Origin: a bacterium
GTDB taxonomy: Bacteria > Bdellovibrionota > Bacteriovoracia > Bacteriovoracales > Bacteriovoracaceae
Assembly: GCA_030425045.1 (NCBI GenBank)
Contig: JAUHVL010000001.1
Coordinates: forward strand, 186,001-250,000
Direction of reading: 5' to 3'
Length of the DNA stretch: 64,000 nt
Shown in pieces: positions 4,792-51,836 of the stretch (position 1 is the stretch's first letter; every line of letters starts with the position of its first letter). The notes under the pieces were generated by a model. That model was not told the origin of the DNA, searched no databases, and saw only the letters and a list, made by a program, of their open reading frames with translations. Position numbers and translations under genes: made by a program.

Positions 4792-5960
4792 ACATAGGCT
4801 TTATAGGCTTGGGAAAATTGGGTTTACCATGTGCTGAAGAGTTTTCTCGTCATTTTGATACTTATGGTTATGACGTCGCTAACATTGAAAGTGATTTAGT
4901 CGGTGTAAAGTGGACACGAAGTATTGAGGAGCTAACGAGAAGCTCAGAAGTAATCTTCATAGCCGTGCAAACACCACATGATAAAAACTACGATGGCTCC
5001 AAGCCTACCTCTGAATTAGAGGTTAAAGATTTCGATTATTCTTATGTTCAAAATGTTCTAACAGAGCTATCTGGTTTTGATCTAGAAGATAAAACAATTG
5101 TTTTGATTAGTACTGTTTTACCTGGAACAATTAGAAATATTTTAAAAGCTCCTAAAAAAATACAAGAAAGACTGGTTTATAATCCCTATCTTATAGCGAT
5201 GGGAACAGAAGTAGAGGATCTAATTAATCCTGAAATGCTTATCGTCGGCAATGAGAGTGGAGAAAGAGATCATCACATAGAGAGACTTGAAAACATCTAT
5301 AAAAAAGTAATCAATAAAGACTTTAAAAAAATGTTTGGGACATGGGAAGAAGCAGAATCTACAAAAATCTTCTATAATACTTTTATTTCTACAAAAATTT
5401 CTTTAGTTAATATGATTCAAGATGTTGCCATGAAAATTGGAAATATCAACTGCGATAAAGTGACAGATGCACTGTCAGAAAGCTCCATGAGAATTATTAG
5501 CCCGATGTATATGAAAGCAGGAATGGGAGACGGAGGACCTTGCCACCCAAGAGATAATATTGCTTTAAGCTCTTTAGCTAAGAGGTTGGAGCTAGGTTAT
5601 GACTTATTTGGCAGTATTATGCACTCACGTGAACAACAAGCAAAAAACCTAGCTTGCTTTGTTTTCTCTCACGGTAAAAAGATTTGCATATTAGGCGAGA
5701 GTTTTAAGCCAAATTCAAAAATTAAAACAGGAAGCTCTAGTTTATTAGTTGCCTACTATTTAAAAGAATTAGGTGCTGAAGTATGTTTTGATAAGCATGA
5801 TGAAAAAAGTGATCATAATACTTTTCTTGTTGCCCATAGAGGATGCTTCTATGATTATACATTCCCTGAAAATTCGATCATTATTGATCCTTGGAGAGAA
5901 TTCCCTGATATAGAGAACTCTAAAGTAATACACTACGGAAATACGACAAATGTTTTATAG
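4788..5960 (+). CDS. UDP-glucose/GDP-mannose dehydrogenase family protein
   Basis: Cytosolic NAD-dependent enzyme that would oxidise the C6 hydroxyl of a nucleotide sugar to a uronate in two steps. The 390-residue protein starts with a Rossmann motif GFIGLGKLGLP (residues 4-14). The central domain holds EAESTKIFYNTF and STK with conserved Lys (about 193 and 203), and the likely catalytic Cys is C252 in GDGGPCHPRDN, which replaces the more usual GFGGSCFPKD. The C-terminal nucleotide-binding domain is short compared with typical UDP-glucose dehydrogenases (about 420-450 residues). ATGA overlap with the preceding gene and an 11-base overlap with the next show one operon. The exact sugar is unknown. 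Confidence 0.82.
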   Translation: MNIGFIGLGKLGLPCAEEFSRHFDTYGYDVANIESDLVGVKWTRSIEELTRSSEVIFIAVQTPHDKNYDGSKPTSELEVKDFDYSYVQNVLTELSGFDLEDKTIVLISTVLPGTIRNILKAPKKIQERLVYNPYLIAMGTEVEDLINPEMLIVGNESGERDHHIERLENIYKKVINKDFKKMFGTWEEAESTKIFYNTFISTKISLVNMIQDVAMKIGNINCDKVTDALSESSMRIISPMYMKAGMGDGGPCHPRDNIALSSLAKRLELGYDLFGSIMHSREQQAKNLACFVFSHGKKICILGESFKPNSKIKTGSSSLLVAYYLKELGAEVCFDKHDEKSDHNTFLVAHRGCFYDYTFPENSIIIDPWREFPDIENSKVIHYGNTTNVL

Positions 5961-7032
5961 TGAAAGTATAAAAGCAGTACATATTGAACTCACCGACAAT
6001 TGTAATGTTTCATGTCCTCAGTGTGGAAGAAATAAATTAGGTGGAAGTGATAATCAACATTTACCAAAAAAAGAAATCAGCCTTGAAGACTTCAAAAGGA
6101 TATTCAAAAAAGATTTTATTCTAAATTTAAATAGGATCTATGCTTGTGGGAATTTTGGTGACCCTGTCGTTGCTAAAGATACTTTAGAAATTTTTGAGTA
6201 CCTACGAGAAACCAACCCCGAAATTAGATTGGGAATGAACACAAATGGTTCTGCAAGAGATCGAAAATGGTGGTCACGTATGGGTGAAATTTTCTCCAAT
6301 CTTGGAGAAATTAAGTTTGGGATCGATGGTCTAGAAGATACAAATCACATCTACCGCAAAGGTGCAAATTTTGAAAAAGTCATAGAGAATGCAGCAGCAT
6401 TCATCGAAGCCGGTGGAAAAGCTCAATGGGAATATATAGTTTTTAAACATAATGAGCATGAAGTAGAAAAAGCAAAAGAGCTTAGCGAGAAGATGGGTTT
6501 TGATAAATTTACACTAAAGAAAACAGGGAGATTTTTTTCAAACACGAAAGTGAAAACAAATGAATTTCAGCAAGTTTTAAGAAAAGATGGAACGTTAGAT
6601 TACATAATAGAAAAGCCTACTCTTGAAAAGTATCAAAATAAAAGCTTACAAAAAGAACTGGATATTATTAACCAGTTTGGAAGCATGGATAATTACCTCG
6701 ATCAAACGGATATTGATTGTAAAGTAATGAAAGAACGAAGTGTGTATGTTAGCTCTGAAGGTCTAGTTTTTCCATGTTGCTGGACTGCAAACCAGCTATA
6801 CCTATGGTATATGCCGGAAAAAAGTGGCCAAGTCTGGAATCTTTTAAGCAAAAATGGTGGAAAAGAAATTCTTTCAGCTTATCAACATGATATCGACGAA
6901 ATAATTAAAGGCCCATTCTTTAACTCTTTAAAAGAATTATGGAGTTGTAATTCTGTTAAAAGTGGAAAACCAAAAGTTTGTGCTAAAACGTGCGGAACTT
7001 TGTTTGATCAATTTAGAGATCAATATAAGTAA
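5950..7032 (+). CDS. Radical SAM/SPASM domain protein
   Basis: Complete 360-residue paralogue of the truncated gene at the window start. The radical SAM cluster is C18-x3-C22-x2-C25 (NCNVSCPQCG). Residues 65-72 (ACGNFGDP) and 127-136 (DGLEDTNHIY) are shared with the paralogue. SPASM-like Cys follow at 257, 276, 277, 333, 344 and 348, enough for auxiliary Fe-S clusters. SPASM enzymes commonly modify peptides or sugars by radical chemistry. The ATG lies within the end of the dehydrogenase gene and the stop overlaps the next start by one base, so it is co-translated with glycan genes. No substrate can be named. Confidence 0.87.
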   Translation: MFYSESIKAVHIELTDNCNVSCPQCGRNKLGGSDNQHLPKKEISLEDFKRIFKKDFILNLNRIYACGNFGDPVVAKDTLEIFEYLRETNPEIRLGMNTNGSARDRKWWSRMGEIFSNLGEIKFGIDGLEDTNHIYRKGANFEKVIENAAAFIEAGGKAQWEYIVFKHNEHEVEKAKELSEKMGFDKFTLKKTGRFFSNTKVKTNEFQQVLRKDGTLDYIIEKPTLEKYQNKSLQKELDIINQFGSMDNYLDQTDIDCKVMKERSVYVSSEGLVFPCCWTANQLYLWYMPEKSGQVWNLLSKNGGKEILSAYQHDIDEIIKGPFFNSLKELWSCNSVKSGKPKVCAKTCGTLFDQFRDQYK

Positions 7033-49183: not shown

Positions 49184-49366
49184 TCTGAGCTTCCTAAGAT
49201 ACCGTAATTAATGAGGCAACTTAGCATTTTTTTAGTTTGCTTAATAGCGAAGTTTGCTAGTTATTAATATTTTACATGGTCTAGTCTTTCAAAAACTTAC
49301 ATCACTATAGATCACTGGAAGAGTGAAGTTCCATATGGCAAATTACTGAAAATTTAGGGGGATTAC

Positions 49367-50677
49367 GTGAAGTTAAATCTATTATTACTTGCTTTTATGG
49401 TCATTCTTACAGTTTCGGCTGAGGCTAGAACAGACTTTTCTAAAACAATTCAGTATGTCCAAGAGAAGTACGCTAACCAGTTTGAAGAGTATCCCATTTT
49501 GATTTTTGATAAGGATGAGCTTTCCTATCGTTATCTACAAAAAAATGCCTTTGGTAAGTCTAAAGAAAAAGAAGTCGAGCGTGCCAATATTATTGTTGAA
49601 TATGTAAAAGAAAAAACTGGGGTTGAGATAACAATGCCTGAGGCCATGGGTTATGAGCCTTATACAACAGTACTTAAAGGGAGTGCGGTTGCCTTGCCGG
49701 TATTGGGACGAACAAGTAAAGATAAGGCCAACTATGTTATGTGTGCTGTATTTCCAGCATCACCTAATAGTAACCAGAAGCTTGAGACTCATAGAATTTT
49801 ACAATTAGATACACCTGATAGTTATGAGAATGTTAATTTTGAAGGGCTACAAGAGAAATTTACGTACGAAGAAATGAAGATGTTTTCTCTATATCATGAG
49901 CTTGGCCATTGTATGGATAGGACATTTATGCCTGAGATGTATTTAACTTATGAGGCCACACCACATGATGTACACCTTGGGGAGTCTTTTGCTGAAGTAT
50001 TCGGCTTACTACTTCTTGAGATGGAAGGTTATAAAAACCTTGGTTTAAAAAGGGCTTTGTATAGAAACTTATACTCGACTGTTATGGGTAAATGGTTTGT
50101 TGATAATCCTCAAAATGGTTTTGGTAATCCATTATATAAATCAGGTGGGCCAATTTATTATTTAGTACCTTCTATTCTTGAAGCGAGAAAAAGGTTAGAG
50201 AAGAGAAAGAACCCTCTTGTTGTGACATCACTAGAAGATATAAAGATTGCAGCTAAAGACATTGTTGAAACTGCTGCTTACTCAAGTAGATCTTTCTCTG
50301 CAGTAAATTATTGGTTTTTTGAAGGGCAAGAGAAAGCTTTAGATATGTATCAAGAATATCATATCAAAATGCCAGAACTATTTGATGGTGTTTTGGGAGA
50401 ACTTTCTGAGTTTATTTTTCAACACGAATACCTCTATGAAAAATTAGCAGGGTTTGAAGAGTCAAAAAATAGTGTAATGATGGAACTTCCTACTCTTGGT
50501 TTAGCAGATTTTTGTATTGCTAAAAATGATAAAGAAGAGCTCTTTAAACTTATTCAATCAGAAAGAACACAGCTACTAAGTTGGGTCGGGCCTTATGAAG
50601 ATCAGCTAGAAAGAAAAGATTCGCTTGATAGTCTTTTTGAAGACTTACAAGAATGTGGGAACGCCGTAATGTTCTAA
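49367..50677 (+). CDS. Secreted HExxH metallopeptidase-like protein
   Basis: The 436-residue protein starts at GTG (49367) after AGGGGGA. Residues 1-20 form a signal peptide (MKLNLLLLAFMVILTVSAEA), so it is exported. The zinc motif is H177-E-L-G-H181, and the third ligand is probably Glu206 or Glu210 in HLGESFAEVFG, a gluzincin-like arrangement. I do not recognise the family. Export and a zinc site suggest an extracellular or periplasmic protease, which in a predator could act on prey protein, but that is inference. It is divergent from speB and followed by a 37-residue secreted peptide gene. Confidence 0.72.
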   Translation: MKLNLLLLAFMVILTVSAEARTDFSKTIQYVQEKYANQFEEYPILIFDKDELSYRYLQKNAFGKSKEKEVERANIIVEYVKEKTGVEITMPEAMGYEPYTTVLKGSAVALPVLGRTSKDKANYVMCAVFPASPNSNQKLETHRILQLDTPDSYENVNFEGLQEKFTYEEMKMFSLYHELGHCMDRTFMPEMYLTYEATPHDVHLGESFAEVFGLLLLEMEGYKNLGLKRALYRNLYSTVMGKWFVDNPQNGFGNPLYKSGGPIYYLVPSILEARKRLEKRKNPLVVTSLEDIKIAAKDIVETAAYSSRSFSAVNYWFFEGQEKALDMYQEYHIKMPELFDGVLGELSEFIFQHEYLYEKLAGFEESKNSVMMELPTLGLADFCIAKNDKEELFKLIQSERTQLLSWVGPYEDQLERKDSLDSLFEDLQECGNAVMF

Positions 50678-50818: not shown

Positions 50819-50932
50819 ATGAAAATTATTATTATCGCATCATTAGTAATTTTGGGAATTCAAAGTACTGTTCAAGGAAAAGAGACTCAAATTAACGATG
50901 TAAAATCAATTACAACTTCACTAGAGAAGTAG
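50819..50932 (+). CDS. Small secreted peptide, unknown
   Basis: A 37-residue open frame with ATG six bases after AGAGAGG. The first 20 residues are a signal-like hydrophobic run (MKIIIIASLVILGIQSTVQG) followed by a short polar tail KETQINDVKSITTSLEK. No known peptide family. It stands alone in the 346-base gap between the metallopeptidase and the lipoprotein gene, in which I otherwise see no feature. A good ribosome site and signal peptide argue for a real gene, but its size allows chance. Confidence 0.45.
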   Translation: MKIIIIASLVILGIQSTVQGKETQINDVKSITTSLEK

Positions 50933-51023
50933 TCCAATCTCACTTTCTATTGTAATTATTGCAAAGTAGTTCACTTGATTTCGAATCATGTATATAAGTG
51001 GTTTTTATCTGGGGGAAATTCAA

Positions 51024-51836
51024 ATGAAGTTATTTTCAATATTATTGTTAGCCGTTTGTTTAAGTGTTTCATGTAGTAAAGAAGATGATCCAAAAGTGCC
51101 AGGAGCTGGTGCTGGTGGAGCTGGTGGCGGCGGTGCTGGCGGTGCTGGAGCTGGTGGTCTAGGAAACCCTATAATAATCACGGCAAATGAAATAAATGAT
51201 AATGAAAGAGAGTTTTTATTATTGATTGAAGACTCACTTAATTCAAGAGAGCCTATTGAGGTAGGTATGCAAAAAGTAGTGCATAATTCATTTCCATACT
51301 CTTCATATTTTGAAGATGCTTCGGGAAATAAAACTCTTGATTTAGAATGTGTTATTAATCAAGTAGAAAAACATACTGTTGTCTCTCTTGATAATAATGA
51401 ATCAAGAACACTTATCGAAACCCTTTCTTTTTCTGCCGTAGATGGTTCTGAAGTGGATAGATGTGAGGAAGCAGCATCAAACTTTTCTTCTGACTCATAT
51501 ATTGAAGTTGCTCGATATGAGGGGACATCAACTATTTATAGTGAAATTGAAGAAACTTTCTTGGGTTCAGAAATAGTTATTACTGAACTTAAAAACATAG
51601 TAGACGATATTTATGAAATTAAATTAATTGCTGCTGAAAATGGTTTTGAAAAGTTTGCTATCGTATCACAATTTGATATGTCGGAGCCGTACTTTTTTAG
51701 TCATTTGAATAATATTATGAACGAGTTACCAACAGGGAAACTTGTAAACTCTGATCTAATTGTAGAAACAGAATATGACGTTGATGTAACGAGCTTTGAT
51801 CTTAATGGACTTGAAGAAGTTAATTTAGACGAGTAA
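51024..51836 (+). CDS. Lipoprotein with Gly/Ala-rich linker, unknown function
   Basis: ATG 51024 follows GGGGGAAA; an in-frame ATG 36 bases upstream would place extra residues before the signal peptide. The 270 residues begin with a lipoprotein signal ending in LSVSC, Cys17 being the lipidated residue. Residues about 27-47 are almost pure Gly and Ala in short GAGG repeats, a flexible tether that carries the C-terminal domain (about 50-270). That domain is acidic, with two or three Cys, and is unfamiliar. Asp at position +4 rather than +2 of the mature protein gives no clear sorting signal. The stop directly abuts the convergent cdd stop. Confidence 0.75.
   Translation: MKLFSILLLAVCLSVSCSKEDDPKVPGAGAGGAGGGGAGGAGAGGLGNPIIITANEINDNEREFLLLIEDSLNSREPIEVGMQKVVHNSFPYSSYFEDASGNKTLDLECVINQVEKHTVVSLDNNESRTLIETLSFSAVDGSEVDRCEEAASNFSSDSYIEVARYEGTSTIYSEIEETFLGSEIVITELKNIVDDIYEIKLIAAENGFEKFAIVSQFDMSEPYFFSHLNNIMNELPTGKLVNSDLIVETEYDVDVTSFDLNGLEEVNLDE

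Follow-up and report, generated by a model that had tools for sequence, protein, structure and literature searches.

The gene at positions 49367-50677 of the window (the whole stretch of DNA that was analysed, 64,000 nucleotides) encodes a protein which, as its sequence and predicted fold support well, is exported, resembles the Glu-zincins and belongs to a family that has no name; it is likely to be a peptidase. The reading that we prefer, with a probability of about 0.65, is that of a stand-alone, exported and disulphide-stabilised metalloenzyme of the Glu-zincin class (clan MA(E)-type), most likely a peptidase. The features of the gene and its product are as follows; the counts refer to the 36 distinct family sequences described below.

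49356-49361, forward strand: Shine-Dalgarno-like AGGGGG, read directly, 5 bases 5' of the GTG.
49367-50677, forward strand: the gene itself, from the GTG start to the stop codon, for the probably exported Glu-zincin-like protein of 436 aa.
49367-49429, forward strand: predicted signal peptide, residues 1-21, with probable cleavage after VSAEA, placed by eye.
49436-50452, forward strand: catalytic core, residues 24-362, mostly helical and DPP III upper-domain-like in the AlphaFold2 model and its VIA-align matches.
49742-49744, forward strand: C126, invariant (36/36), the probable disulphide partner of C182.
49895-49909, forward strand: HELGH, residues 177-181, on a helix in the model; H177 and H181 are predicted zinc ligands and E178 the predicted general base (H, E and H in 36/36).
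49910-49918, forward strand: C182 and D184, directly 3' of HELGH (each 36/36).
49973-49996, forward strand: H203 (35/36), followed by E206-S-F-A-E210 on helix 199-219; E206 is the predicted third zinc ligand and E210 a supporting residue (E206, A209 and E210 in 36/36).
50051-50065, forward strand: R229 (35/36) and R233 (36/36), candidate substrate-binding or structural residues.
50156-50158, forward strand: Y264 (36/36), candidate transition-state stabiliser.
50453-50674, forward strand: residues 363-436, a helical extension at the C-terminus that includes the cysteine pair C383/C430; such an extension is found in 25/36 sequences.

The open reading frame on the forward strand, its GTG start and the AGGGGG ahead of it are as an earlier note on this DNA had described them, and the signal peptide proposed there holds by hydropathy and the AxA pattern. 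The N-terminus of the 436-aa protein has a best 10-residue Kyte-Doolittle mean of 3.42, followed by an AxA-like site; across the family, a hydropathy of at least 1.8 was found in 35 of the 36 sequences, an AxA-like site (under a lax pattern) in 35, and both in 34. The protein is probably exported. Its own genome contains one match to the gene, and promoter- and terminator-like matches scored below the shuffle means.

The earlier note had recognised no known family, in agreement with the library searches: Pfam and the PDB sequences returned nothing above noise for the single protein or for the 8-row and 36-row alignments, NCBIfam nothing above noise for the single protein or the 36-row alignment, and PHROGs no match to the single protein. 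A match to DUF1015 (Pfam E 0.046 and 0.032) lay below the cut-off of that family, involved one of 36 members and was regarded as noise, as were the other library matches of one to three members, the best of which, CAMSAP_CC1 (0.00042), came from one of eight members and was absent with the core alone. Two weak matches to PDB sequences, 7exm and 4f61, lay outside the motif and vanished with the 36-row profile. An origin in a mobile element is unsupported, since phage, plasmid and viral-contig searches gave no match. No paper on the family was found in the incomplete literature collection that was searched.

At E <= 0.001, the 36-row profile detected family members in 37 of the 368 phylum genomes, including the genome itself and G138, which has a C-terminal piece only; with the 8-row profile, matches were found in 38 of 368 at E <= 0.01. 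At the level of the family Bacteriovoracaceae the latter profile gave 27 of 129 genomes (20 of the 73 good ones), spread over 12 of 48 genera, the genome itself and one fragment included. No gene of this kind was found in the 14 genomes listed for genus g15, in a table that leaves 82 negative genomes unlisted. The 69 ORF matches that were kept collapsed into 36 distinct sequences, the 436-aa protein among them; left out of this count were G138, with nothing but C-terminal pieces, and G147 (E 0.0039), both weaker than 1e-10. The full profile was run within the phylum. In the species collection, a single strict motif served as the probe and yielded 26 stretches and 16 confirmed relatives, whereas the single protein as query had at first confirmed none. 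The named relatives belong to Bacteriovorax sp. BSW11_IV and to several Bacteriovoracaceae and Halobacteriovorax metagenome genomes, and the titles of some others read only Bdellovibrionales, Deltaproteobacteria or Proteobacteria. By sequence, the family has so far been found in Bdellovibrio-type bacteria.

The HELGH motif and the downstream GESFAE (residues 205-210), which the earlier note had singled out, are at the centre of what is conserved: H177, E178, H181 and E206 are identical in all 36 distinct sequences. Fourteen columns of the alignment show no change (I44, C126, R143, H177, E178, H181, C182, D184, E206, A209, E210, R233, G261 and Y264), which is only 14 of 339 core positions, and the post hoc chance that the four named residues would all be among them is 1.9e-6. 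The patterns HExxH-C-x-D and E-x2-A-E are kept in every member, down to 19% identity. The second motif reads E-[SATV]-[FY]-A-E in 35 sequences and ELKAE in one, and the distance from histidine to glutamate is 21-23 residues in 22 sequences, 24-25 in 13 (24 in the 436-aa protein) and 28 in one. The dN/dS ratios of two close pairs of relatives are 0.076 and 0.080, rough values that could be estimated for two of eight pairs, with synonymous sites near or at saturation. Judged by this conservation, the family is under strong selection, with the motif at its centre.

Two length classes occur in the family: 25 sequences are long and carry the C-terminal extension, and 11 are short and lack it. The cysteine pair of the extension is present in 23 of the 25 long forms and in none of the 11 short ones. 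Together with the invariant C126 and C182 this pair suggests disulphides, which would fit export, and a C126-C182 link is probable.

The AlphaFold2 model of the full protein (8-row alignment) has a pLDDT of 82.9 and a pTM of 0.84, with three strands in all, and that of the core, residues 24-362 (36-row alignment), a pLDDT of 93.5 and a pTM of 0.92. In the numbering of the core model, helix 144-160 holds HELGH at 154-158 and helix 176-196 holds E206 at 183. By sequence and predicted secondary structure, the protein has both features of a Glu-zincin, HExxH on one helix and a glutamate on a following helix, and the residues concerned are invariant in the family.

Foldseek gave no match to the PDB at E <= 0.001 for either model, and its listed rows, with query TM-scores of 0.08-0.17, were taken as chance. 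The top chains from Foldseek were re-scored with VIA-align. For the full model, the DPP III of Corallococcus (5zum) came first (Z 8.0, 219 residues aligned, rmsd 4.9), the designed protein 8tno second (Z 7.2), and then BepA, another DPP III and PolE. For the core model, the DPP III family member 5yfd led the list (Z 7.3, 207 aligned, rmsd 4.9); next came another entry under its title and then BepA, CaDPP III, IRAP, a DUF885 protein and collagenase G. Among the first 12 rows for the core, ten are of the metallopeptidase type (DPP III four times, three of them under one title, BepA, IRAP, the DUF885 protein, collagenase G, an M61 aminopeptidase and ERAP1), and all ten presumably belong to the Glu-zincin class. 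Transporter proteins occupy ranks 8 and 10, unrelated helical proteins dominate further down, and one solved DPP III, 5na7, scores only Z 3.2 against the core model. A Z of 7-8 is middling for helical proteins, whose folds can reach such values by chance. The alignment to 5zum begins at its residue 266, which is the reported start of the zinc-binding upper domain (266-303 and 345-546) of that enzyme (PMC9820243). The modest scores weigh more because the leaders are nearly all HExxH metallopeptidases, although the aligner is a structural one, and because the 5zum match starts at that residue.

The core rows of BepA (M48), the M1 aminopeptidases, collagenase G (M9) and M61 have Z values of 4.0-6.1 among the first 12, but these proteins differ from the HELGH protein in architecture and show no sequence match to it. 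Membership of M1, M48, M9, M61 or DUF885 was rejected, and the structural rows are read as a sign of a common class, not of a family.

The closest comparison in structure is that with DPP III (family M49). In pentapeptide-type DPP III, zinc is held by the two histidines of HExxH and by the glutamate of EExxA, and pentapeptide M49 enzymes with HEISH and HELMH have been described (PMC5805324, PMC9820243). The distance between histidine and glutamate in DPP III is 28-29, as taken from the residue numbers given in these papers, and its size is about 550 aa or more (PMC5805324). The HELGH family has in common with these enzymes the pentapeptide HExxH and a predicted third ligand in an E-x2-A-E/D stretch, and DPP III stands first in both VIA-align runs, with CaDPP III (6eom) at Z 5.0 and 5.9. 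It differs from them in its conserved cysteine pairs, in a shorter gap in 35 of 36 members and in the lack of the lower five-stranded beta-barrel domain, the protein having 436 aa and three strands in the full model.

It is conceivable from these likenesses that the protein is a divergent true M49 dipeptidyl peptidase, which has lost the lower domain and still removes dipeptides. The leading rank of DPP III in both runs would agree with this, as would the E-x2-A-E that it has in common with the M49 motif EExR(K)AE(D), and one pentapeptide M49 enzyme, from Corallococcus, carries a predicted signal peptide (PMC9820243). One member of the family (L057) also has the M49-like ELKAE and the 28-residue gap. 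We nevertheless regard such an origin as unlikely: PF03571 (M49) was not matched at E <= 1 by any of the 36 members, nor in the genome itself, nor by L057; the first glutamate of EExR(K)AE(D) is absent in 36/36 and its Arg/Lys in 35/36; and hhalign with two M49 sequences left the motifs unaligned and gave E 0.72, a value that each of the 8 unrelated controls bettered. The HELGH protein is not filed under M49, because there is no profile match, the second motif is of another form and the lower domain is missing.

L057 (positions 4834-6336) is the most divergent member of the family; it keeps HExxHC-D and E-x2-A-E and is without H203. Over its 458 aa no Pfam family, PF03571 included, was matched. 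As a bridge to M49 it was rejected, as its use as a query returned 25 of 368 genomes, consisting of itself and sites of members of the HELGH family.

A second use of the same scaffold is that of PolE (DUF6421), a non-peptidase which is reported to be structurally homologous to DPP III and to have the motif HE/DxxHx(21-23)E (PMC12614342). The HELGH protein might, by analogy with this Fe/pterin-dependent oxidase, carry an iron site that oxidises a small molecule. PolE appears among the structural matches (9j3g, Z 5.0, full model; 9j30, Z 3.9, core), and the gap in the family, 21-23 residues in 22 of 36 members with 13 more within two residues, is nearer to that of PolE than to the 28-29 of DPP III. 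Because the motif spacing of PolE fits equally well, it has to be taken seriously as a rival, but export speaks against it: 35 of 36 sequences have a signal-like N-terminus, and an enzyme outside the cytoplasm is unlikely to use a cofactor such as a pterin or alpha-ketoglutarate. DPP III also scores above PolE in both VIA-align runs, and the 24 Pfam families to which the 36 members had matches at E <= 1 do not include DUF6421, a negative that counts only if this Pfam copy contains that family. Taken together, an oxidase of this kind appears quite unlikely.

A relationship to M90/MtfA would place the protein among enzymes with HExxHxxD and a glutamate in the second helix, and this spacing is identical. 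A single M90 sequence was the best of 18 hhalign comparisons (E 0.0089, with the HExxH regions aligned), but at a probability of only 4.5%, with other HExxH proteins next (E 0.021-0.046) and a control at 0.06. As PF06167 was matched neither in the genome itself nor by the 36 members at E <= 1, membership of M90 is very unlikely. The motif layout also recalls what we take to be that of M34, a likeness of layout only.

Eight other proteins of 544-855 aa from related genomes (L083-L086 and L088-L091) have HExxH and a weak match to M90, below its cut-off and over the second half of the profile; by sequence they are another set of unassigned zincin-like proteins. In L078-L082 and L087, open frames of 146-208 codons score above the cut-off of the M90 profile, with a match confined to its first 90-117 positions.

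A zinc peptidase, as the earlier note had proposed, is the likeliest function, because the whole Glu-zincin motif is strictly kept and Glu-zincins lead the core structural list (10 of the first 12 rows). PolE, which is no peptidase, nevertheless belongs to the same structural superfamily. For the preferred metallopeptidase, we infer the zinc, the disulphides, the catalysis, the substrate and the place of action as follows. A Sec-type signal peptide would export the protein, which would fold in an oxidising compartment, either the periplasm of the predator or beyond it, and one or two disulphides (C126-C182 and, in the C-terminal extension, C383-C430) would hold the fold. The catalytic body may correspond to the upper zinc-binding domain of DPP III without the lower beta-barrel. 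One zinc ion might be bound by H177 and H181 of one helix and E206 of the next, with E210 keeping a ligand in place; E178 would activate the zinc-bound water for the attack on the peptide bond, a mechanism put forward because it is standard for the class. R233 and Y264 are candidates for the binding of the substrate or of the transition state. The likeliest substrates would be short peptides or loosened proteins and, as the lower domain is absent, strict dipeptidyl cleavage is not expected.

The protein might instead be catalytically idle, an exported chaperone or structural protein in which the motif serves metal binding only. The patchy presence of the gene, the lack of widely common neighbours and the lack of a known substrate would be compatible with such a role, which the invariance of E178 in 36/36 makes highly improbable, as a metal-only site would not need this residue.

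No pointer to a substrate came from the neighbouring genes, operon structure or expression. The neighbours in the window, which we take to be hflK, hflC, an arginine decarboxylase, an agmatinase-like protein, a lipoprotein, a cytidine deaminase, meaB and a methylmalonyl-CoA mutase, were not found by tblastn in the 33 stretches around relatives (some overlapping, some short). In 31 stretches, besides the gene itself, no neighbour family occurred in more than 5, and several of these occurrences were within one genus group. Between the HExxH gene and the lipoprotein gene lies an ORF of 37 codons (50819-50932, ATG at 50819) with a hydrophobic start, which had no relative by in-frame tblastn in the 33 stretches around family members. 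The product of the frame at 50988-51836 is probably a lipoprotein; it has SVSC as a lipobox-like site and a linker rich in Gly, and no Pfam match. The in-frame ATG at 51024 is a better start for it than the listed 50988. In five stretches (L009-L013), genes for an IMS-type DNA polymerase and for a second DNA polymerase III alpha lie close to the relative and form an apparent imuB-dnaE2-like pair (Pfam was run on L009 only).

The exported hydrolases with which predatory bacteria digest their prey form large, uncharacterised sets. The earlier note had suggested a prey-digesting enzyme, but no result of the analysis ties the gene to that role. The family might be a new peptidase family, so far known only from Bdellovibrionota-type bacteria, in which a DPP III-like domain was freed, exported and locked by disulphides and, in some lineages, breaks prey peptides in the prey periplasm; we regard this extension of the preferred reading as speculative and doubtful. 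That the gene was detected in 27 of 129 Bacteriovoracaceae genomes argues against a core role in predation. A comparative genomics study of Bdellovibrionota describes many peptidase clusters, and its main text contains neither 'metallo' nor 'zinc' (PMC11656739); for Bacteriovorax sp. HI3, a metallopeptidase is reported in a strain-specific region (PMC12827227).

The find is a modest one, one more zincin family and not a new kind of system. It consists of one coherent, probably exported family, absent from the libraries searched, for which there are 36 distinct sequences with an intact catalytic motif and a confident model, and it makes the HELGH gene a defined candidate for knockout in a predator. 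If the protein is active, the zinc-binding half of DPP III would be able to work alone outside the cytoplasm.
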